A stretch of 64,000 nucleotides of DNA from Tepidanaerobacter acetatoxydans Re1 (GTDB lineage: Bacteria; Bacillota; Thermosediminibacteria; Thermosediminibacterales; Tepidanaerobacteraceae): assembly GCF_000328765.2 (NCBI RefSeq), contig NC_019954.2, positions 314,501-378,500 of the forward strand, written 5' to 3'. Below are positions 11,589 through 23,608 of the stretch, one piece after another. The position numbers and the translations under genes are program-made. The notes beneath the pieces were generated by a model. It was not told where the DNA came from. It ran no database searches and saw only the letters and a program-made list of their open reading frames with translations. Every line of letters begins with the position of its first letter. Within the stretch, counting starts at the first letter, position 1.

Positions 11589-12221
11589 ATGCTTGAAGAA
11601 CTTTTCGACAAAATAGTAGACATGGACGAAGAAGGATCGATTAAACTTGCTAAAGAGTATTTGGACAGTGGCGGAGATGCTCAAAAACTGCTTGAAGTAT
11701 GTAGAGATGCAATGGCTGTCATAGGAGATAAATTCGAAAAAGGTGAGTATTTTCTTTCCGAGCTGATTCTCGGGGGAGAGATATTTGGAAACATTATGGA
11801 ATTTACAGTACCCTTAATTAAAGAAGGAGATGCCCAAAAGCTTGGGAAAATGGTACTTGGAACTGTAAAAGGGGATATACACAACATAGGCAAAGATATC
11901 TTTAAAGCATTTGTAGAAGCGGCAGGATTCGAAGTAGTCGATATAGGTGTTGACGTACCTGAAGAGAATTTTGTAGAAGCAGTAAAAGAACATAAGCCGG
12001 ATATAGTTGGCATGTCTTGCTTAATAACAGCAGGCATAAGCTCAATGAAAAATACCGTAGAAGCATTAAAAGAGGCCGGACTAAGAGATGGCATAAAGAT
12101 AATAATAGGTGGAGGCCGAGTAGACGAAGAAGTAAAACAGTTCTCAGGCGCAGATGCCTGGGCAGATGATGCGGCAAAGGGAGTAAGGCTTTGTAGGGAA
12201 CTATTAGGAGTAGAGGGGTGA
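11589..12221 (+). CDS. methyltransferase cognate corrinoid protein 2
   Basis: 210 residues, ATG 11589 behind AAAAGGAGG. It has the cap domain with VIGDKFEKGEYFLSELILGGEIF, then the B12-binding motif DIHNIGKD with the lower-ligand His, then GMSCLITAGISSMK and GGGRVDEE. Its stop overlaps the next start as TGATG, so translation of the class A methyltransferase is probably coupled to it. This identifies the pair as one methyltransferase I/corrinoid unit. Confidence 0.93.
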   Translation: MLEELFDKIVDMDEEGSIKLAKEYLDSGGDAQKLLEVCRDAMAVIGDKFEKGEYFLSELILGGEIFGNIMEFTVPLIKEGDAQKLGKMVLGTVKGDIHNIGKDIFKAFVEAAGFEVVDIGVDVPEENFVEAVKEHKPDIVGMSCLITAGISSMKNTVEALKEAGLRDGIKIIIGGGRVDEEVKQFSGADAWADDAAKGVRLCRELLGVEG

Positions 12222-13450
12222 TGGAAATGACTACAAAGAGTGCACAGGAGCTTGCTAAGGAGCGCCTTGACCGTATAGAGGCGGCTATAAATCTCGAAGA
12301 GCCGGCTAGGGTTCCATGTTGGGGAATCGGCGGGGAGATTGTTGCAAGTTATTCAGGCTTTACGCAATATGATTTGGCTTATGATCCTGAAAAATCCCTA
12401 AAAGCAATTGAAAAATTCTTAAAAGATTTTCCTTTTGATACATCAATGGCTGGACTTGCAGGGTTAGACGGGCGAGTATTTAGTATAGCATTTGCAGAAC
12501 ATCCCGATATATCACCTGCTGTTACGTTTATAACAGGACCTCTGCATGATATTTGGGGCGATAAATATACCAGATTTCCGGGTAGAGAGATTGATGTAAA
12601 CGCTACTCCCCAGTTTGTAGGCGGAACATTTATGGAACCGGACGAATATGACAAACTAATTGAAAATCCTGTAAAGTTTGTTGCGGAAACTATACTTCCA
12701 AGAGTATGCCGTAATTTAGAAACCCCGCGTCAGGCTATGGCTACTTTTGTGAGAGTCGGCATGGAAGTTGCCGGAAGCGCTTCTACCATGGGTAAACTAG
12801 CTGAAATTTCAGCCAAACTCGGATATCCTGACTTTCCAATGGGATGGGGATATGCGCCGTTAGATATTATAGGCGATTTTTTAAGGGGAGTCGGAACTGT
12901 GGTATTAGATATTCACAGATATCCGGATAAGGTTAAAAAAGCTACGGAAGCACTGCTGGAACCTGTTACAAATTATGCATTAACCTCCAAGCAAATGGGA
13001 GCCAAGTATGCGATGTTCCCGCTGCATTTGAATGAATATTTATCTCCTAAGCTTTATAATGAGTTTTATTGGCCAACTTTAAAATCAATCATTTTAAGAC
13101 TTTATGAGGAAGGTATTAAATCGATAGTATTTTTTGAAGGTCATCATGAACAACATTTGGAAACTATATTGGAATTGCCCAGAGGCTGGGGTGTGGCATA
13201 CTTTGAGAAAACTGATGTCATTAAAGCAAAAGAGGTCTTAAAGGATCATACATGTGTCATGGGCGGTATACCTATAAGCCTAATAGTTAGCGGTAATCCG
13301 GAGCAGATAGATGAATACATTAAGAATCTGTTGGAACAAGTAAAACCCGGCGGAGGATTTATACTTGCACCGGGTGTGGGAGCTGCTCCTGCTGAAACAC
13401 CGCCGGAAAATATAACTGCGGTAATTGAAGCAGTAGAAAAGTACGGTTAG
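12221..13450 (+). CDS. UroD-superfamily corrinoid methyltransferase, class A (complete copy)
   Basis: About 409 residues from the ATG at 12221 (TGATG overlap with the corrinoid gene); the ATG at 12227 is an alternative. Motifs in order: EEPARVPCWGIGGEI, the IGDFLRGVG segment, HRYPDKVKKA, FYWPTLKS, FFEGHHEQHLETILELP, GVAYFEKTD and LEQVKPGGGFILAP. It is the full-length counterpart of the fragment at 1-669. Bases 12248-12473 (about codons 10-85) are present a second time in inverted orientation, with no mismatch, inside the GntR gene near 22724-22949. Role inferred: methyltransferase I for a methylated substrate, paired with corrinoid protein 2. Confidence 0.88.
   Translation: MEMTTKSAQELAKERLDRIEAAINLEEPARVPCWGIGGEIVASYSGFTQYDLAYDPEKSLKAIEKFLKDFPFDTSMAGLAGLDGRVFSIAFAEHPDISPAVTFITGPLHDIWGDKYTRFPGREIDVNATPQFVGGTFMEPDEYDKLIENPVKFVAETILPRVCRNLETPRQAMATFVRVGMEVAGSASTMGKLAEISAKLGYPDFPMGWGYAPLDIIGDFLRGVGTVVLDIHRYPDKVKKATEALLEPVTNYALTSKQMGAKYAMFPLHLNEYLSPKLYNEFYWPTLKSIILRLYEEGIKSIVFFEGHHEQHLETILELPRGWGVAYFEKTDVIKAKEVLKDHTCVMGGIPISLIVSGNPEQIDEYIKNLLEQVKPGGGFILAPGVGAAPAETPPENITAVIEAVEKYG
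12248..12473 (+). repeat. parent copy of the 226-bp inverted repeat
   Basis: This stretch of the class A methyltransferase gene is the reverse complement of 22724-22949; aligned bases have coordinates summing to 35197 at both ends, so there is no gap. It is coding here and continuous with conserved family sequence on both sides, so this is the source and the copy in the GntR gene is derived. Confidence 0.95.
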
Positions 13451-13460
13451 CTTGCAAAAA

Positions 13461-13490
13461 TTGGGCACTGATAAACATATCGGTGCCCAA
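13461..13490 (+). terminator. hairpin after the class A methyltransferase
   Basis: TTGGGCACTGAT (13461-13472) pairs with ATCGGTGCCCAA (13479-13490), one wobble pair. It is followed by TAAAATTT rather than a clean T run, so termination may be partial. Confidence 0.65.
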
Positions 13491-13599
13491 TAAAATTTAG
13501 AATAAAAGTCAAGTGATATTTGTATAGGACTAATTTTAAGACTAAAAACAAAATCAACACAAAATAATAAAATATAAGAAAAGTAACAACAAATCTACA

Positions 13600-13662
13600 T
13601 TGACAAATAATTAAAAAAATGATATTATACAGACACACTAAGAAGATATACATGTATATACA
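13600..13662 (+). promoter_or_regulatory. promoter with TGTATATACA palindrome, folate-branch operon
   Basis: TTGACA (13600-13605), 17 bases, TATTAT (13623-13628), and the perfect 10-base palindrome TGTATATACA at 13653-13662. It would give a leader of about 300 bases before the methyltransferase II start. In 13663-13939 I recognise no known riboswitch. Confidence 0.68.
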
Positions 13663-13939
13663 AACATAATTTTCACATAAATTTGTTATACATAAATTAT
13701 GAAAAAATTTTAAGGCTTTTTATGTTTATTCATCCATGATTCCGCTGCAGAAAGCCGATTCCGACCTAAAAAATCAGTATATCCTTCCTGGCCTTAATAA
13801 ATGCGACATGCCGTATTGGCCATAAGTTTAGCAAAAAAGGTTTTCGCAATAAAATAGTTTCATATTATTTAGATGTAAACAAACTTTTGTTTTAATTAAC
13901 AAAACTAAAATTTACGAAAGCTGAGGTGCCTTCTAAAAA

Positions 13940-14746
13940 ATGATTATTATTGGGGAAAAGATTAACGGGACAATTCCCAGCGTAAAAAAAGCCATAGAGG
14001 AAAAAGACGAGAAAATTATTCATGATCTTGCTGTCAGGCAGGCGGATGCTGGTGCCGACTATATTGATGTGTGTGCGGGTACCACTCCGGAAATCGAAGT
14101 CGAAACGTTGAAGTGGTTGATGAGCATAGTGCAAGATGCTACGGATAAGCCGTTATGCATTGACAGTCCAAACCCCAGGACTATCGAAACTGTATTTGGA
14201 TATGCCCGAAAGCCGGGGATAATAAATTCGGTGTCGTTGGAAGGTGATAAATGCGAAGTGATTTATCCGCTAATCCAGGGAACGGATTGGCAAGTCATTG
14301 CACTGACTTGTGACAATAAAGGGATTCCCTCGGATGTAAAGACTAGGATCGACATAACAGAAGCATTAGTTGAAAGAGCTGAAAAGTACGGAATTACGCC
14401 AGACAGAATCCACATAGACCCACTAGTTATAGCCCTTGCCACAGATAACCAATCCTTGATTAAGTTTATTGAAACGATGAAGATAATTAAAGCAAAATAT
14501 AATAACATCAAAATTACTTCAGGATTGAGCAATATTTCCTTTGGCATGCCTTTAAGGAGAGTTATTAATCAAACTTTTTTAACTTTGGCAATATACGCAG
14601 GCATGGATTCGGCCATTATGGATCCTTGCAATAGGGATATGATGGCAACCCTATTGGCCACCGAAGCCTTGCTGGGGCGCGATAGATATTGCCGAAAGTT
14701 TACAAATGCATATCGAAAAGGCAAAATAGGACCTAAAAAGGATTAA
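13940..14746 (+). CDS. methyltetrahydrofolate:corrinoid methyltransferase (methyltransferase II, AcsE/MtgA/MtvA-like)
   Basis: 268 residues of a pterin-binding TIM barrel. Visible motifs are IIIGEKINGTIPSVK, AGADYIDVCAGT, PLCIDSPNPRTIE, NSVSLEG, IHIDPLVIALATD and SGLSNISFGMPLRR, all typical of the AcsE/MtgA group. It takes methyl groups from the methylated corrinoid proteins to tetrahydrofolate, or the reverse. GAGGTG lies upstream, slightly far from the ATG. It sits between the corrinoid methyltransferases and the folate enzymes and is therefore the link between demethylation and the Wood-Ljungdahl methyl branch. It could also serve CO dehydrogenase's corrinoid protein; no acs genes are in the window. 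Confidence 0.9.
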   Translation: MIIIGEKINGTIPSVKKAIEEKDEKIIHDLAVRQADAGADYIDVCAGTTPEIEVETLKWLMSIVQDATDKPLCIDSPNPRTIETVFGYARKPGIINSVSLEGDKCEVIYPLIQGTDWQVIALTCDNKGIPSDVKTRIDITEALVERAEKYGITPDRIHIDPLVIALATDNQSLIKFIETMKIIKAKYNNIKITSGLSNISFGMPLRRVINQTFLTLAIYAGMDSAIMDPCNRDMMATLLATEALLGRDRYCRKFTNAYRKGKIGPKKD

Positions 14747-14809
14747 AAATGTAATTTAAATTCATTTAATCTTTATAAAAATCTTAAAAAAACCAAGGAG
14801 GCAATTCTA

Positions 14810-16495
14810 ATGACTTTTAAATCCGACATTGAGATTGCTCAATCAGTGAAACTCCAAGATATCAGAGAGATTGCGGCAAAGCTAGGTCTTACCGAAGACG
14901 ATATTGATTTGTACGGCAAATATAAAGCAAAGGTCGACTATAATTTACTAAATAATTGTAATGGTAAAAAAGCAAAGTTAATTTTAACAACTGCCATTAC
15001 TCCTACACCTGCAGGGGAAGGCAAAACTACAACCACAATCGGTGCTGCGGATGCACTTACAAGACTTGGGAAAAAGACTATTGTTGCATTACGTGAGCCG
15101 TCATTGGGTCCTGTTTTTGGAATTAAAGGTGGTGCGGCCGGGGGCGGATATGCACAGGTTGTTCCTATGGAAGATATAAACCTGCACTTTACCGGGGATA
15201 TTCACGCTATTACGGCTGCCAACAATCTATTAGCCGCCATGGTGGATAATCATATTTTCCAGGGGAATCAATTAAATATCGACACTAGGCGTGTTGTTTG
15301 GAGACGTGCTGTTGATATAAATGATAGGCAATTAAGATTTGTCATTGATGGTCTTGGAGGAAAAGCCAATGGGGTGCCAAGAGAGGACGGCTTTGATATT
15401 ACTGTTGCTTCGGAAGTAATGGCTATTTTCTGTCTTGCTAACGATATTATGGATTTGAAAGAACGGCTGGCGAAGATTGTTGTAGCATATGATCGGGAGG
15501 GTAAGCCCGTTACTGCGGGAGATTTAAAAGCACAAGGTGCCATGGCGGCTCTACTCAAAGATGCTTTAAAACCCAATCTGGTACAAACATTAGAAGGTAC
15601 TCCTGCTTTCGTGCATGGTGGTCCCTTTGCAAATATAGCACACGGATGTAACTCGGTAATTGCAACTAAAATGGCAATGCATCTTGCTGATTATGTGGTA
15701 ACGGAGGCCGGCTTCGGCGCGGATTTAGGTGCTGAGAAATTTATAGATATAAAATGCCGATTGGCTGGGCTAAAACCTGATGCGGTGATTATAGTTGCAA
15801 CGGTTAGAGCCCTCAAATACAATGGAGGTTTGGCAAAGGCTGACTTGGAGAAGGAAGACTTGAATGCACTAGCCAAGGGTATTCCGAATCTATTAAAACA
15901 TGTAGAAAACATCACACAAGTATTCAAACTTCCTGCTGTTGTAGCAATAAACAGATTTCCTCAGGACACCGAAGCCGAATTGAAACTGGTTGAAGACAGA
16001 TGTAATGAGCTTGGGGTGAATGTAGCATTATCTGAAGTATGGGCAAAAGGCGGGGAAGGCGGAATAGCCCTTGCGGAAGAATTAATAAGGCTAACAGAAG
16101 ACAATAAGGCAAGTAATAAGGGGTTGGCGTATGTTTATGAGCTAGATATGCCAATAGAAGAAAAAATACGTGCAATCTCGCAAAAAATATATGGTGCAGA
16201 TGATGTGATGTTTACAGATAAGGCATTAAAGGAAATTGCGAATCTTGAAAAACTCGGTTTTGGTAAAATGCCGGTTTGTATAGCAAAAACCCAGTACTCA
16301 CTGACTGACGATCCTAAAAAATTAGGTAGGCCGTCAGGATTCAATATTACCGTAAGGGATGTTTCAGTATCGGCTGGAGCCGGATTTATAGTGGCTGTTA
16401 CAGGCGATATTATGAAGATGCCGGGCTTGCCTAAGGTACCTGCAGCAGAAAAAATTGATGTGGATGAAAAGGGTGTTATTTCAGGGCTATTCTAA
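14810..16495 (+). CDS. fhs: formate-tetrahydrofolate ligase
   Basis: 561 residues, near the family's usual 555-560, ATG 14810 after AAGGAGG. It carries the ATP-binding [15 protein letters not shown] loop, [19 protein letters not shown], and the C-terminal [19 protein letters not shown]. It makes 10-formyl-THF from formate and ATP, or runs in reverse to recover ATP in methyl or acetate oxidation. It follows methyltransferase II with only about 60 bases between and no terminator, so is probably co-transcribed with it. Confidence 0.97.
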
Positions 16496-16518
16496 TATTT
16501 TTTTACTGAAAAAACAAT

Positions 16519-16603
16519 CAGGGCGGTATAGGATGCTGCTGTTTACCCGGTTTTTACAGGGTCTGAATTAAAATTCATTCTATGGCATAATCTTATACCC
16601 CTG
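16519..16603 (+). ncRNA. possible three-way-junction leader RNA before fchA
   Basis: Predicted by eye: outer stem CAGGGCGGTATA (16519-16530) with TATACCCCTG (16594-16603), one bulge; hairpin 16545-16562 (ACCC..GGGT with one mismatch and a TTTT loop); hairpin TGAATT/AATTCA (16564-16577). It lies inside the folate operon just before the fchA ribosome binding site. It does not match the folate riboswitches I know. It could be an mRNA processing or stability element. Confidence 0.35.
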
Positions 16604-16640
16604 CTTTAAAAATTACATTTAATATATATTTTGGAGAGTG

Positions 16641-17279
16641 ATGCCGGTGAAGTTAGCCGATAAAACTTGTAATGAATTTGTAAATGAATTGGCGTCAAAA
16701 AACCCAGTACCCGGAGGCGGAGGAGCTGCTGCATTAGTGGGAGCTATAGGAGTAGCTCTAAGCAGCATGGTATGTAATTTAACTACAGGAAAGAAAAAGT
16801 ATGCACAGTTTGAGGATGATATACAAGACATTCTAAAAAAAGCCCAGGAGCTGCAAAATTCTCTTATGCAGATGATTGATGAAGATGCAGAAAACTTTCT
16901 CCCTCTTTCCAAGGCCTATGGTATGCCAAAAGGTACGGAACAAGAGCGTAAACTTAAGGAAGAAACCCTGGAAAAGGCATTAAAACAAGCTTGCGAAGTT
17001 CCAATAAAAATAGTAAAAGCATGCTATGACGCAATTAAGCTGCATGCCGAATTGGTGGATAAAGGTTCAAGGCTTGCTATAAGTGATGTAGGCGTAGGTG
17101 TACAGTGCTTGAGAGCTGCCATAATAAGTGGCCAGTTAAATATTGTTATAAATATCAATTCTATTAAAGATAGTGTCTATGTTGACAGAATAAAAAAGGA
17201 AGTAATGCCTTTGGTTAAAGAAGGTGTAAATCTTGCCGATAAGGTATACGAAAAAGTAGAGCAGATATTAAGCCGTTAA
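16641..17279 (+). CDS. fchA: methenyltetrahydrofolate cyclohydrolase (FchA/FTCD family)
   Basis: 212 residues of the formimidoyltransferase-cyclodeaminase-like helical family: KLADKTCNEFVNELASKNPVPGGGGAAALVGA at the start, then MIDEDAENFLPLSKAYGMPK and SDVGVGVQCLRAAI. Acetogens use this FchA type for methenyl-THF hydrolysis. The start is uncertain: ATG 16641 is close to GGAGAG (16633-16638), while GTG 16647 has better spacing and matches the usual beginning MKLADKTC. Confidence 0.93.
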   Translation: MPVKLADKTCNEFVNELASKNPVPGGGGAAALVGAIGVALSSMVCNLTTGKKKYAQFEDDIQDILKKAQELQNSLMQMIDEDAENFLPLSKAYGMPKGTEQERKLKEETLEKALKQACEVPIKIVKACYDAIKLHAELVDKGSRLAISDVGVGVQCLRAAIISGQLNIVININSIKDSVYVDRIKKEVMPLVKEGVNLADKVYEKVEQILSR

Positions 17280-17301
17280 ATGCAAAATATTAAGCCGATA
17301 T

Positions 17302-17393
17302 CGGGAACAGGCGGCTTGCATCAGAAATAAGGTAAAAACGTCCCATTGCCTTGCTTTATTTAGCAAAGATTATGATAAAAGCACCTGTTCCCG
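17302..17393. repeat. imperfect palindromic element between fchA and folD
   Basis: CGGGAACAGG (17302-17311) pairs with CCTGTTCCCG (17384-17393) around a 72-base interior. The sequence style (GGGAACAGG...) resembles short REP-like intergenic palindromes of Firmicutes. It lies within an operon, so read-through presumably occurs. Confidence 0.5.
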
Positions 17394-17425
17394 TGTCTTA
17401 ATACTGAGATGAGGGAGGATTTTAA

Positions 17426-18283
17426 TTGGGTATATTAATGAAAGGCAAACCAGTCGCAGATGCAATAAAGGAAGAACTTAAGGCAGAAGTTCAGGATTTA
17501 AAGGCAAAAGGTATTATTCCCAAATTAACGATTGTTAGAGTTGGAGCAGATCCGGGTGATATGTCATATGAACGCGGAGCCCTTAAAGCAATGGCAAATA
17601 TAAACATAGATACGGATGCACGGGCTTTGCCTGAAAATATTGAGCAAACTGATTTTATAAGTGAATTAGAAAAGATAAATGCTGATACGTCAACTCACGG
17701 AATATTGATATTAAGGCCTTTGCCAAAACAGCTGGACGAAAAAGTGATAAAAAATTTCATTGCACCTGAAAAAGACGTAGATTGTTTTAATCCCATAAAC
17801 GTGGCAAAAGTTTTTGAAGGCGACGAAACCGGATTTCCTCCATGCACTCCGTCGGCAGTAATGGAAATCCTGAAGTTTTATAATATCGAGCTTATGGGTA
17901 AAAATGCGGTAGTCATCGGCAGATCTATGATAGTGGGGAAACCTGCAGCTATGCTGCTATTAAAAGAGCATGCCACTGTCACGGTGTGTCATTCGAGAAC
18001 AAGAGATTTGCCATTGGTTGCATCAGGTGCCGACATACTAGTGGTTGGTATAGGAAGAGCCAAAATGGTTAACTCCAACTACATTAAAGATGGAGCAGTT
18101 GTTATCGATGTAGGGATTAATATGGACGAAGATGGTAGGCTATGCGGGGATGTGGATACTGATAACTGCATAAACAAGGCTTCTATGATAACTCCGGTTC
18201 CGGGTGGAGTAGGCTCGGTTACAACTTCTGTTTTAGCAAAGCATGTTGTTCAGGCATGTAAAATGCAGTTGAGTTTACTATAA
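17426..18283 (+). CDS. folD: bifunctional methylene-THF dehydrogenase/methenyl-THF cyclohydrolase
   Basis: 285 residues from TTG 17426, which has GGGAGG at good distance; ATG 17438 is an alternative. Motifs: YERGALKAMANI (catalytic Tyr and Lys region), GILILRPLPKQ, PCTPSAVMEIL, VIGRSMIVGKPAAMLLL (NAD(P) binding) and MITPVPGGVGSVTTS. It interconverts methylene-, methenyl- and formyl-THF with pyridine nucleotide. The presence of both FolD and FchA means cyclohydrolase activity may be duplicated. Confidence 0.96.
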   Translation: MGILMKGKPVADAIKEELKAEVQDLKAKGIIPKLTIVRVGADPGDMSYERGALKAMANINIDTDARALPENIEQTDFISELEKINADTSTHGILILRPLPKQLDEKVIKNFIAPEKDVDCFNPINVAKVFEGDETGFPPCTPSAVMEILKFYNIELMGKNAVVIGRSMIVGKPAAMLLLKEHATVTVCHSRTRDLPLVASGADILVVGIGRAKMVNSNYIKDGAVVIDVGINMDEDGRLCGDVDTDNCINKASMITPVPGGVGSVTTSVLAKHVVQACKMQLSLL

Positions 18284-18304
18284 GCCAAAGGAGGTAGGAT
18301 AGCC

Positions 18305-18973
18305 TTGATAATTTCGCAAAATAAACCCTTTGAAGAAATAACTGAGTATTTAAAAGACTGCGAAAAAATTGTATTAATAGGTTGCGCTCAATGTGCTACT
18401 GCATGTAAGAGCGGCGGTGAAGAAGAATTAATAGCCATGAAAAAGAGATTAGAAGAAATCGGTAAGCAGGTTTTAGCTTTTATTGTGCCTGAAACCAGTT
18501 GCAACTATCTTTTGATTAGAAGAGATCTTAAGAAGATAAAAGATGAAATAAATGAGGCGGATGCCATTTTATCATTTGCATGCGGAGATGGGACTCAAAC
18601 TATCGCAAAGCAGGTAAAGATTCCGGTCTATCCAGGTAATGATACATTATTTGTCGGGGAAGTTGAAAGGGTTGGTCAATACAGCGAAGCATGTAGAACT
18701 TGTGGAGAATGTGTGTTGGGATTGACGGGAGGTATTTGTCCGGTGACTCGTTGTGCCAAATCTTTGCTGAATGGTCCATGCGGTGGTGCAAAAGATGGAA
18801 AATGTGAAGTAAATCCGGAAAATGACTGTGCTTGGATTTTAATATATAAAAGGCTGAAAGAATTAGGGCAAGTAGAAAACTTAATTCAAATACAGCAGCC
18901 TAAGGACTATTCTAAGACCACATATCCGAGAAACCTCAACTTACGAGAGAAAGATGGGGGTGGAAGGCAATGA
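18305..18973 (+). CDS. metV: methylene-THF reductase accessory Fe-S protein MetV
   Basis: 222 residues from TTG 18305 behind AAAGGAGG. Cysteine-rich: GCAQCATACKSGG near residue 25, then CRTCGECVLG, GGICPVTRCAKSLLNGPCGG and CEVNPENDCAW in the C-terminal third. This is the MetV (MTHFR C-terminal domain) protein that binds MetF in acetogens and feeds it electrons through iron-sulfur clusters. Its stop overlaps the metF start (ATGA), which supports a complex. Confidence 0.94.
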   Translation: MIISQNKPFEEITEYLKDCEKIVLIGCAQCATACKSGGEEELIAMKKRLEEIGKQVLAFIVPETSCNYLLIRRDLKKIKDEINEADAILSFACGDGTQTIAKQVKIPVYPGNDTLFVGEVERVGQYSEACRTCGECVLGLTGGICPVTRCAKSLLNGPCGGAKDGKCEVNPENDCAWILIYKRLKELGQVENLIQIQQPKDYSKTTYPRNLNLREKDGGGRQ

Positions 18974-19845
18974 GTTTGTTGCAAAAAGCTCTTGAAAGCG
19001 GTGAGTTTGCAGTTACTGCCGAATTGGCACCACCAAAAGGAACTGATTTTTCTCATGCCCTGCAGAATGCAGAATTATTTGGAGATAGAGTTCATGCTAT
19101 AAATGTTACAGATTTTCAATCATCATCATTGAAAGCAACTTCTTTAGCTATGTGCAAAGCTTTAATCGATTTAGGATTAGAGCCTGTCTTTCAAATAACC
19201 GGGCGTGATCGAAATAGAATAGCGATACAGGGAGAAATGCTGTCGGCGGGATTTTTTGGGGTAAAAAACCTGTTAGCCCTTACCGGAGACCATACTACCG
19301 TTGGTGATAATCCAGGTGCAAAGCCGGTATATGACTTAGACAGTATTGGGATTTTGCAGGCAGCTACAATGCTGGCAAGTGGTGTTGATATGGGTGGAAA
19401 TAAGCTTGAAGGAAGCCCGTCCTTCTTCTTGGGAGCAAGTGTAACTCCGGAATATGATCCCATTGAACTGCAATTAATCAAAATGAAAAAGAAAATAATT
19501 GCCGGAGCAAAATTTTTTCAGACTCAAGCAGTATACGATATCCGGACAATGGAAAAATTTAAGGAAATAACAAAACATTTAAATACTAAGATACTAGTCG
19601 GTATTATTCCACTAAAATCAGCGGGCATGGCAAGGTTTATGAATAAAAAGATTCCGGGAATAAATGTACCTGACGAATTGATTGACAGATTAAAGTTGAG
19701 TAAAGATCCGGTGCAGGAGGGTATTAAAATTGCCGGCGAGTTTATCGTTGAACTAAAAAACCGGAATTTATGCGATGGTGTTCATATAATGGCAATTGGT
19801 GCGGAAGAAAACGTACCCTTGATTTTAGATGCAGCGGAACTTTAA
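18970..19845 (+). CDS. metF: methylenetetrahydrofolate reductase
   Basis: 291 residues, TIM barrel with TAELAPPKGTD at the start, LALTGDHTTVGDNPGAKPVYDLDS (flavin and folate region), KKKIIAGAKFFQTQAVYD and ILVGIIPLKSAGMARFMN. It reduces methylene-THF to methyl-THF or oxidises methyl-THF when methyl groups are burned. It is overlapped by metV and followed 17 bases later by lpdA. Confidence 0.95.
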   Translation: MSLLQKALESGEFAVTAELAPPKGTDFSHALQNAELFGDRVHAINVTDFQSSSLKATSLAMCKALIDLGLEPVFQITGRDRNRIAIQGEMLSAGFFGVKNLLALTGDHTTVGDNPGAKPVYDLDSIGILQAATMLASGVDMGGNKLEGSPSFFLGASVTPEYDPIELQLIKMKKKIIAGAKFFQTQAVYDIRTMEKFKEITKHLNTKILVGIIPLKSAGMARFMNKKIPGINVPDELIDRLKLSKDPVQEGIKIAGEFIVELKNRNLCDGVHIMAIGAEENVPLILDAAEL

Positions 19846-19862
19846 ATATGGGAGGAATCCAA

Positions 19863-21236
19863 ATGAGATTAGTAGTAATAGGAGCAGGGCCGGGTGGGTA
19901 TGAAGCAGCTATAAAAGCAGCCAAACTAGGAGCTAAAGTGAGTATTATCGAAAAGGATAAAGTTGGTGGTACTTGCTTAAATCGCGGCTGCATACCTACA
20001 AAATCTTTATTGGCTTCTTCAGATGTATTTGGGATTGTTAATAATGCCCAAAAGTTTGGAGTAAACATAACAGGTCAAGTGAGTGCCGACTTTTCCGAAA
20101 TGATGAACAGAAAAAATAAATTAGTTTCGCAAATGGTAAATGGTATCGAATTTCTGCTTAAAAAGAATGGCATAGAGATTATAAAAGGCGTAGGTAAACT
20201 TATAGATAAAAACCTGGTTGAAGTTACAAAAGATGACGGTTCAAAGGAAATCTTAAGAGCAGATAAGATAATTCTTGCAACTGGGTCGATACCTGTATGT
20301 CCCGGATTATTTAACTATGATGGAAAATATATAATTACCAGTGATGAAGTGTTAAACCTCGAGAAAATTCCTGATTCTATGATAATTGTCGGTGGCGGCG
20401 TAATTGGCTGCGAAATAGGCCAGTTTTTGCGGCGGCTGGGAACGGAAGTGACAATAGTTGAAATGATGCCGCAGATACTGCCTATGGAAGATGAAGATGT
20501 AGCAAAACAGTTAATTCGGCAGTTTAAGAAGGATAAAATCAAAATAATTACAGGGAAAGGCATTACTTCCGTTAAAGTAGAAAACAATAGGGTAATTGCA
20601 GGCGTGGAAAATACTATGCTTGAAGCTGACATGATGATGGTTTCCATCGGAAGGAAACCATTTACGGAAGAATTGGGACTGGAAAATGCAGGGATTGAAA
20701 CAGATAAGAGAGGCAGGATTCCCGTAAATAGGAAATTGGAAACATGTGCAGAAGGTATTTATGCAATAGGTGATATTATTGATACACCGTTTTTGGCTCA
20801 TGTAGCTTCAAAAGAGGGTGTAATTGCTGCCGAAAATGCTCTGGGTGGCGACAAGGAAGTTGCATACCATGCCGTCCCCAGATGTGTCTACACAGAACCA
20901 GAAGTTGCTGCTGTAGGATTGACTGAATCTGAGCTTAAAGTTGCGGCTAAAGCATATAAAATCGGAACCTTTGACTTTAGAGGTTTGGGCAAGGCCCAAG
21001 TTATTGATAAAATACAGGGATTTGTAAAGGTTATAACAGATGAAAATGATAAACTAATCGGTGCTTCAGTGGTAGGTCCCAATGCAACAGATTTGTTGGC
21101 AGAACTGACATTAGCAGTTCACCTTGGACTTTCTGCTGAACAAGTGGGCGATGTTATTCATCCGCATCCAACCCTGAGTGAGGCTATAATGGAAGCCTTG
21201 CACGATGTACACGGTCAAAGCGTACATAAAGTATAA
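19863..21236 (+). CDS. lpdA: dihydrolipoamide dehydrogenase
   Basis: 457 residues from ATG 19863 (GGGAGG upstream); the in-frame ATG at 19770 lies inside metF and is rejected. FAD-binding GAGPGGYEAAIKAAKLGA, redox disulfide GGTCLNRGCIPTKSLL, NAD-binding IVGGGVIGCEIGQFLRRLG, and C-terminal HPHPTLSEAIMEA with the catalytic His-Glu. Next to gcvH it serves as L-protein of glycine cleavage, or links lipoyl-protein redox to the folate pathway. Confidence 0.95.
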   Translation: MRLVVIGAGPGGYEAAIKAAKLGAKVSIIEKDKVGGTCLNRGCIPTKSLLASSDVFGIVNNAQKFGVNITGQVSADFSEMMNRKNKLVSQMVNGIEFLLKKNGIEIIKGVGKLIDKNLVEVTKDDGSKEILRADKIILATGSIPVCPGLFNYDGKYIITSDEVLNLEKIPDSMIIVGGGVIGCEIGQFLRRLGTEVTIVEMMPQILPMEDEDVAKQLIRQFKKDKIKIITGKGITSVKVENNRVIAGVENTMLEADMMMVSIGRKPFTEELGLENAGIETDKRGRIPVNRKLETCAEGIYAIGDIIDTPFLAHVASKEGVIAAENALGGDKEVAYHAVPRCVYTEPEVAAVGLTESELKVAAKAYKIGTFDFRGLGKAQVIDKIQGFVKVITDENDKLIGASVVGPNATDLLAELTLAVHLGLSAEQVGDVIHPHPTLSEAIMEALHDVHGQSVHKV

Positions 21237-21278
21237 TTCTGCAGGCAAAAATCATGTAAAAACGAAAGAGGTTTAAAA

Positions 21279-21350
21279 ATGGATTGTAAAGTAATGCACC
21301 GGAAATTCGACATTTGTTTGACTTTTAGCATTAAAACTTATAAACATTAA
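21279..21350 (+). CDS. possible 23-residue small ORF between lpdA and gcvH
   Basis: ATG 21279 lies 7 bases after AAAGAGG and opens a 23-codon frame with two Cys and basic residues, ending at TAA 21348-21350, 21 bases before gcvH. Nothing in it is recognised. The support is only the ribosome binding site and position; it may be chance. Confidence 0.25.
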   Translation: MDCKVMHRKFDICLTFSIKTYKH

Positions 21351-21371
21351 GTTGGAAAAGGAGAGAATCGA

Positions 21372-21746
21372 ATGAAGTTTCCCGATAATTTAATTTATAA
21401 CAAAGAACATTTATGGGTGAAGGTAGAAGGTAATACTGCCTATGTAGGCATTACCGACTATGCTCAAGATCAACTGGGAGAAATACTGTACGTAGACTTA
21501 CCGGAAGTCGGCCAAGAGTTTTCCAAGGGCGATCAATTTAGCGAGGTGGAATCCTCGAAAGTAAATTCAACACTAATGTTGCCTTTTTCCGGTGTCGTAT
21601 TGGAAGTCAACGAAAAACTGGATGACGAGCCTGAATATATAAACGCGGCACCTTATGACGCGTGGATTGCCAAGTTTGAATTGAATAGTCCTGAAGAACT
21701 GAATGATATGATAAGTGCATCAGTATATGAAGAGGGATTAGAATAA
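21372..21746 (+). CDS. gcvH: glycine cleavage H-like lipoyl protein
   Basis: 124 residues, ATG 21372 after AAAAGGAGAG. Fold signature LWVKVEGNTAYVGITDYAQDQLG and the lipoylation hairpin EVESSKVNSTLMLPFSG, with the Lys in place. It differs from the second H protein of this window (62832), which has the standard ESVKAASDL. Clustering with lpdA and folate genes suggests it shuttles methylene or amino-methyl units between glycine cleavage and the folate branch. Confidence 0.9.
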   Translation: MKFPDNLIYNKEHLWVKVEGNTAYVGITDYAQDQLGEILYVDLPEVGQEFSKGDQFSEVESSKVNSTLMLPFSGVVLEVNEKLDDEPEYINAAPYDAWIAKFELNSPEELNDMISASVYEEGLE

Positions 21747-21859
21747 GGTATTATATTCAGCAGGGCGGCGCAAAGCTATGCTCAAAGACTGCTATTGTGT
21801 ATATTTACCGTTATATTTATTGAATTTTGAGTCTGTGGTTATCATCTCGGTTTTATTAT

Positions 21860-21888
21860 TTGAAAAATTTAGCATATAGTGATATTAT
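21860..21888 (+). promoter_or_regulatory. promoter of the corrinoid protein 3-GntR unit
   Basis: TTGAAA (21860-21865), 17 bases, TATTAT (21883-21888). No TGTATATACA palindrome accompanies it, unlike the three methyl-locus promoters. Confidence 0.55.
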
Positions 21889-21951
21889 TATGATGACAAG
21901 ATTGAAGATATTTCTGACTTTTGTGCCTGGGCTTGTGAAGGGAGGGGCATA

Positions 21952-22638
21952 ATGGACGAATTAATAATTAAAGCAGTGGAAGAACTAGACGAAGATAAGG
22001 TTGTAAAATTAGCCAATAAAGCGTTGAATGATGGTATGGAACCTTTCTATCTATTGAACTTAATTAAAGAAGGGATGAACAGGGTAGGTAAATTATACGA
22101 AAATAAGCAGTATTTTATAGCAGATCTTATTATGGCAGGACTTATTTTTAAAGAGGTTTTGAAACTTGATAAGATGGCGGCTCAACTTCATAACGATGAC
22201 AGTAAAAAAATCGGAAGAGTATTAATCGGAACTGTAAAAGGTGATCTGCACGATATTGGTAAAGATATTTTTAGAGGCATGATGGAAGCAAATAAATTCG
22301 ATGTTATTGATCTTGGAGTCGACGTAGGTAAAGAGTCATTTGTGAAAGGTGTACAAAAATATCAGCCGGATATTGTCGGCTTAAGTGGTGTGCTAAACTA
22401 CACAATAGAATCAATGAAGGAAACGGTAGAGGCGTTAAATGAAGCCGGTCTGAGGAGTAATATACTAATCATTTTGGGAGGTAACCATCTTACTAAAGAA
22501 GCATGTGAGTATGTGGGCGCTGATTATTACACAAAGGATGCATCGGTTGGCGTTAAATACTGCAAAAAATGGATAAAAACTAAATATCAAACAAGGAGTA
22601 TCAATAATGGGATTACCGATTTATCTTCAAATCGTTGA
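21952..22638 (+). CDS. corrinoid protein 3, co-transcribed with a regulator
   Basis: 228 residues, ATG 21952 behind GGGAGGGGC. Cap domain (MNRVGKLYENKQYFIADLIMAGLIF) and B12 domain with DLHDIGKD, GLSGVLNYTIESMK and GGNHLTKEACE. It has about 20 extra C-terminal residues beyond the other two copies, which overlap the start of the downstream GntR gene by 32 bases. It has no methyltransferase gene beside it. It may serve the partnerless methyltransferases upstream or, speculatively, report corrinoid methylation to the regulator. Confidence 0.9.
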   Translation: MDELIIKAVEELDEDKVVKLANKALNDGMEPFYLLNLIKEGMNRVGKLYENKQYFIADLIMAGLIFKEVLKLDKMAAQLHNDDSKKIGRVLIGTVKGDLHDIGKDIFRGMMEANKFDVIDLGVDVGKESFVKGVQKYQPDIVGLSGVLNYTIESMKETVEALNEAGLRSNILIILGGNHLTKEACEYVGADYYTKDASVGVKYCKKWIKTKYQTRSINNGITDLSSNR

Positions 22639-23565
22639 AGACATAAAAGAAAAAATTAATACAGGACAATTAAAACCTGGTGACGCCATATACTCTGAAA
22701 ACGCTTTAAGTAAGGCCTATAATGCCCGTCTAACCCTGCAAGTCCAGCCATTGATGTATCAAAAGGAAAATCTTTTAAGAATTTTTCAATTGCTTTTAGG
22801 GATTTTTCAGGATCATAAGCCAAATCATATTGCGTAAAGCCTGAATAACTTGCAACAATCTCCCCGCCGATTCCCCAACATGGAACCCTAGCCGGCTCTT
22901 CGAGATTTATAGCCGCCTCTATACGGTCAAGGCGCTCCTTAGCAAGCTCAAGCCGCATGACGGTGAGAAAAGGACTGGCTATTTTAGCCAGCGAAGGGTA
23001 TATATATTCTATTCCGGGTAAAGGCAACTTTGTTCAGCAACCTGATAGCAGTATATATACCCTTTATTACGATGAAATGAATAATTTCATAAATAGTGTT
23101 GACAGAACCAAACTTTTAGAAGTTAATATTATAATGCCGACTTATAAGCTTATTAATGAATTAAAAATAACTAAAAATAAAAAAGTAATACTGATTCGAA
23201 GATTGTTTTATACCGATGGTGAACCGGTAGCGTATGACGTGAAATATTTACCTTATTATAAAGGCATGCCGATCGTAGAAAAAGAAATACGATATGCGAC
23301 ATTCCCTGAAATGGTATCAAAGAATACATCGCTTTTTGCAATAAAAAAGGAACTAATTATTTCAGCTCAAGTACCGGATGAAGAAATTCGAAAATATTTA
23401 AACATATATAATGAAGTTCCTCTGATGGTAGTTGAACAAAAACTTTATGATATTGATAACAAACCTATGGGACTGGGAATAACGTATTTCAGGAGTGATT
23501 ATTGCAAACTCTATGCTGAGGCGTCATTTAGTGATAAAACAGCTCAAGAAAAAGTTACAACTTAG
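22607..23565 (+). pseudogene. GntR/UTRA-family transcription regulator, split by an inserted inverted gene fragment
   Basis: ATG 22607 (AAGGAG upstream) begins a GntR winged helix-turn-helix: YLQIVEDIKEKINTGQLKPG then SENALSKAYN. The frame then enters foreign sequence and stops at 22837. The missing continuation, SRMTVRKGLAILASEGYIY, starts at 22952 and runs through the wing (GKGNFVQQ) and a UTRA ligand domain to 23565. Removing 224 bases (22726-22949) restores an uninterrupted and consensus-like reading: AYN-A-SRMTVRKG. The insert length is not a multiple of 3, so the protein is broken inside the recognition-helix region. A restart at ATG 22957 is possible but has no ribosome binding site. 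The intact ancestor was probably the local repressor or activator of the methyl locus. Confidence 0.9.
22724..22949 (-). repeat. 226-bp perfect inverted copy of the class A methyltransferase 5' region
   Basis: On the - strand this segment encodes ELAKERLDRIEAAINLEEP and on to AGLAGLDG, identical to the protein at 12221. The DNA matches 12248-12473 base for base as far as I can check by eye. The ends share 2 bases (GC) and 1 base (C) with the target, and there is no target-site duplication and no loss of target sequence. It looks like a recent templated or microhomology-driven insertion, or an assembly error. Confidence 0.93.
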
Positions 23566-23575
23566 CAGAAAAACC

Positions 23576-23608
23576 AAAACCTTTGCAATTATAATTGCAA
23601 AGGTTTTT
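23576..23608 (+). terminator. intrinsic terminator after the GntR gene
   Basis: The perfect 15-base arms 23576-23590 and 23593-23607 are followed by a T run. It ends the corrinoid protein 3-GntR transcript. Confidence 0.88.

Follow-up and report, generated by a model that had tools for sequence, protein, structure and literature searches.

The sequence analysed here is a 64-kb window corresponding to positions 314501–378500 of the one-contig, 2,761,252-bp genome of Tepidanaerobacter acetatoxydans Re1; coordinates are those of the window unless the genome is named. The following features lie in or around an interrupted gene for a GntR-type regulator.

12218–13450, + strand: intact gene for a 410-aa URO-D/MtaA-CmuA-like corrinoid methyltransferase (PF01208, E = 4e-28, residues 223–409)
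12248–12473, + strand: source arm of a 226-bp perfect inverted pair, approximately codons 11–85 of the methyltransferase (exact match)
12474–22723, no strand: inter-arm segment, 10,250 bp (ORFs, repeat report, and family scans for some genes)
21952–22638, + strand: MtbC/MtgC-like corrinoid protein gene, immediately 5′ of the GntR gene (PF02310 and PF02607)
22607–22723, + strand: 5′ remnant of the GntR gene, 39 codons, helix-turn-helix (HTH) stub (translation; partial PF00392 match, positions 2–36 of 64)
22724–22949, − strand: insert, inverted exact copy of 12248–12473 with a net gain of 224 nt (repeat comparison and empty site in homologues)
22957–23565, + strand: 3′ remnant of the GntR gene, an ORF from the internal ATG of SRMTVRKG that holds the UTRA effector domain only (PF07702, E = 5e-21)

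An earlier note on this DNA had reported an exact 226-bp inverted match between the two arms, and repeat comparison confirmed it, with 226 of 226 bases of 22724–22949 identical to the reverse complement of 12248–12473. The identity breaks off sharply at both ends of the pair. A 20-nt-seed search of the window found no other repeat of at least 40 bp, and the match is far beyond chance. When the insert was compared with the whole genome, its only full-length match besides itself was the source at 12248–12473, and weaker matches (78% and 71%) were to paralogous genes. The source methyltransferase scores below the cut-off of the MtaA and CmuA models and has two close paralogues in the genome (75% and 63%). 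That the source lies in an intact gene with paralogues bears out the proposal that a coding fragment was copied and inverted.

The inter-arm segment contains the remainder of the methyltransferase gene, a MeTr-like methyltransferase gene, fhs, fchA, folD, two metF-region genes, lpd, a gcvH-like gene, the corrinoid protein gene and the first 39 GntR codons; the names folD, metF, lpd and gcvH were assigned by reading translations. Elsewhere in the window, Rfam matches on the + strand identified a lysine riboswitch (RF00168, 58398–58572) and a glycine riboswitch (RF00504, 61496–61587).

The interrupted GntR gene and its empty site

Both domain halves of the regulator are present in the window with the insert between them, and the insertion point lies in the codons of the recognition helix of the HTH. 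Before insertion the target was a HutC-type GntR gene, in which PF00392 and PF07702 occupy one ORF, as they do in the intact homologues L025 and L027. The start of the gene is overlapped by 32 nt of the 3′ end of the corrinoid protein gene. The stub frame runs on into the insert and stops at 22835–22837, giving a 76-aa product, and a family scan of the 22957–23565 ORF detected no GntR HTH. This UTRA-only ORF is 92% identical to its orthologue in Tepidanaerobacter sp. GT38. Because the net 224 nt is not a multiple of 3, the GntR reading frame is lost as well, and with the HTH split and the frame shifted, DNA binding should be lost. A 32-bp perfect palindrome, terminator-like in form, follows directly after the GntR remnant (23576–23607).

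The GntR genes and flanks of relatives were aligned, as the earlier note had suggested, and the site was uninterrupted in all 41 homologous loci, reading SR-MTVR or SR-ATVR in a single frame. The site was likewise without an insert in further homologous genomes beyond these loci. In homologues, nine bases separate the AAT-aligned codon from the ATG (GCN-AGY-CGN in the near ones), whereas in this genome the AAT ending at 22723 and the ATG at 22957 are 233 nt apart, indicating that 224 nt were gained on balance and that every target base was kept. The 41 uninterrupted homologues thus uphold the claim that the fragment landed precisely in the recognition helix, with target bases neither lost nor duplicated. 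In GT38, genes for the methyltransferase, fhs, the gcvH-like protein, the corrinoid protein and GntR follow one another as they do here, the insert is missing, and the corrinoid gene again neighbours and overlaps the GntR gene; a corrinoid-protein gene lies 5′ of GntR in eight of the nine loci compared. The insert-free homologues, including GT38 with its shared gene order, place the event on this strain's own branch.

At the left junction, target ...TATAATGC(C) meets source GCCCGTC..., and 2 or 3 nt are identical, depending on the native Ala codon that was lost. If this codon was GCA, the identity is 2 nt (GC); if it was GCC, the identity is 3 nt (GCC) and one untemplated base has to be added. 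The third base of the codon varies in relatives (GCA, GCC, GCT and GCG). At the right junction, source ...GCAAGCTC meets target AAGCCGCATG, with no clear identity. The junction microhomology, 2–3 nt on one side and none clear on the other, is not above chance. Comparison of the junctions with homologues revealed no target duplication and no inverted termini, and the copy begins and ends in plain coding sequence.

The broken gene is otherwise well preserved: of 58 columns without variation among 39 homologues, it keeps 57. The one exception lies in the stub at 22709, where AGT encodes Ser and all homologues checked have Cys; this change, 15 nt ahead of the left junction, is either a mutation linked to the insertion or early decay. 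Nonsynonymous divergence of the broken gene from three near relatives is 0.049–0.076, only slightly above the range among those relatives (0.045–0.061) and not strongly raised. Synonymous sites are near or at saturation against the nearest relatives, so that divergence dating is impossible and the event can only be called recent. The retained columns, the absence of a strongly raised nonsynonymous divergence and the zero divergence of the arms together indicate a recent event, with the caveats that recombination between the arms may maintain their identity and that this identity may partly be an assembly consensus. The suggestion that zero divergence reflects a very recent origin fits the 57 of 58 columns kept, and the alternative that the copies are under selection found no support.

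Origin of the insert

We consider it probable that the insertion truly exists in T. acetatoxydans Re1, that it is recent and templated, and that it is a loss-of-function mutation. An assembly artefact, in which the GntR gene of the strain would be intact and chimeric reads or faulty scaffold joining would have produced the insert, is unlikely. The published final draft (HF563609, 2,761,252 bp) was made from DNA of the cultured strain, prepared with a standard extraction kit, by Newbler assembly of Ion Torrent reads; the 96 scaffolds were concatenated, and gaps were closed from another draft that had been mapped to the separately published Re1 genome, NC_015519/CP002770 (PMC4374699). This history, the zero divergence of the two copies and the good preservation of the rest of the GntR gene would be in keeping with an artefact. 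But an assembler has no cause to break or misjoin a stretch that holds no real repeat, and separate chimeras would have to dominate at each of the two junctions at approximately 156–209-fold coverage. An insert brought in by gap filling would, in addition, have to be present in the separately published Re1 genome, and the stub has already lost a Cys that does not otherwise vary. Reads shorter than the repeat would collapse the arms, so that the presence of both arms is more certain than their perfect identity. The artefact that the earlier note had allowed for is therefore less likely as a false insertion, whereas for the perfect identity of the arms the doubt has grown, since short reads could have merged the copies.

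Self-comparison of 864 kb (31%) of the genome revealed no second inverted coding copy, which also speaks against an artefact, and none similar was found in 705 kb around homologues. Both a genome-wide tendency and a systematic assembler fault were rejected on these grounds; with no second event in the 864 kb, no mutational tendency is visible. What the 864-kb comparison did yield were transposase-like elements, tandem SLH-protein repeats and a few short direct repeats. Two 2.1-kb elements outside the window (genome positions 390987–393112 and 635008–637133) are 99.7% identical, each with a transposase-like frame of approximately 660 aa and flanked by direct repeats of 44–56 bp. An SLH-domain surface protein (L088, 3642–6035) carries at its C-terminus three nearly identical tandem copies of approximately 76 residues each.

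A templated insertion could have arisen during replication or break repair: a growing 3′ end at the GntR site would have paired over 2–3 nt with single-stranded DNA of the source, 10 kb distant, been extended along it by approximately 224 nt, and then returned to the original GntR template without loss. The move onto the opposite-strand template at the donor, and back again, would account for the inverted orientation of the copy. In a variant of this scheme, a single-stranded source fragment would be built into the lagging strand as a primer, giving the same product. Because the 2–3 nt of identity is no more than chance would give, it is the structure of the insert, rather than its junctions, that points to a template switch. 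GC skew is positive across the whole window, consistent with + as the leading strand, and this would place the donor behind a fork reaching the target. We infer a step of this general kind, for which a replication template switch and capture of a single-stranded fragment would leave the same sequence; RecA-independent capture of a DNA fragment would look identical.

Capture of filler DNA, in which a double-stranded source fragment would be ligated into a double-strand break, is improbable. The intact target bases and the minimal junction identity fit blunt capture, but no Ku was found in the genome by a search that detected the B. subtilis control, and in a cell lacking Ku one would rarely expect blunt ends to escape resection. 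The only reverse transcriptase sequence found in the genome was one RVT_1 fragment in a 116-aa open frame. The failure to find Ku and the presence of RVT_1 as a fragment only argue against Ku-type end joining and a cDNA route, respectively, and both were rejected. Insertion of an insertion sequence (IS) or MITE was rejected because the junctions have neither IS ends nor a target duplication, in agreement with the earlier view that no IS was involved. A structured RNA copied as such was also rejected, since neither arm matched Rfam and folding of the source strand was about that of shuffles (z = 0.05).

Consequences for regulation

The position of the GntR gene makes it the probable local regulator, and its loss would be expected to leave whatever genes it controlled in unregulated expression. 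Since the GntR gene overlaps the corrinoid gene and lies next to C1 genes, the regulator probably acted on these adjacent C1/corrinoid genes. In three Tepidanaerobacter relatives (L025, L027 and L007), an ACCGGG-N8-CCCGGT or ACCGGG-N12-CCCGGT inverted repeat lies a short way 5′ of the conserved corrinoid-gene promoter. At the same place in the window (21834–21851) the sequence reads TGTGGTTATCATCTCGGT, in which the palindrome is not intact, and the genome contains no perfect copy. The element at 21834–21851 could be an eroded GntR operator or a lost terminator; the variable spacing of the palindrome and the T-run that follows it fit a terminator as well as an operator.

Most likely the inserted sequence has no function of its own. 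A functional antisense role, in which RNA of the insert would pair with 226 nt of the methyltransferase mRNA and lower its expression, is very improbable. The insert lies on the transcribed strand of the corrinoid-gntR unit, where gntR overlaps the upstream corrinoid gene, and its orientation and perfect complementarity suit such a role, as does a promoter-like CTGAAA-17-TATAAT that ends exactly at the junction (22695–22723). But promoter-like sites are rarer than in shuffles (6 versus 8.7), this candidate sits in ordinary coding sequence, and the arrangement is absent from every homologue. RecA-mediated inversion of the 10.25 kb between the arms is possible, and what speaks for it is the anatomy. 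A recent chance mutation gives the anatomy of antisense and inversion equally well and for free. We think it highly unlikely that the insert has been kept for antisense RNA and/or for RecA flipping of the 10.25-kb C1 block as a reversible two-state switch of the methyl branch.

If the templated insertion is real, Re1, a reference strain for syntrophic acetate oxidation, is probably without a functional copy of this regulator. Homologues retain the regulator, usually adjoining a corrinoid-protein gene, and its loss would matter when C1 regulation in Re1 is compared with that in other species. The locus would also be a very clean bacterial example of a long inverted templated insertion, with a known donor and empty site, lossless junctions and no transposase.

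Comparison with known systems

The FoSTeS/MMBIR models were described for human copy-number change and for amplification in E. coli (Hastings et al. 2009, PMC2621351). In these models junctions show microhomology of 2–5 bp, DNA from other places is inserted, and a second switch, in inverted orientation, brings back a viable chromosome. The present insertion resembles these events in its short inverted segment from elsewhere, little junction homology and a donor left intact (the 410-aa gene is complete and has paralogues); two switches restoring the chromosome would be a further likeness. It differs in that one 224-nt piece was added to a bacterial chromosome and nothing alongside it was deleted or duplicated. 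In short-patch double illegitimate recombination (SPDIR) of Acinetobacter baylyi, short intragenomic segments are joined at microhomologies and replace short patches of tens of bases. The Re1 event shares with SPDIR a short intragenomic DNA segment, and its 2–3 nt of junction identity may correspond to the SPDIR microhomologies. It differs in that 224 nt were added and nothing was replaced. As with IS and MITE insertions, a gene is interrupted by sequence present elsewhere in the genome, but the sequence comes from within an ordinary coding gene, and terminal inverted repeats, target duplication and transposase are all lacking. The event is an unusually clean case of a known type of accidental mutation and not a new biological system.
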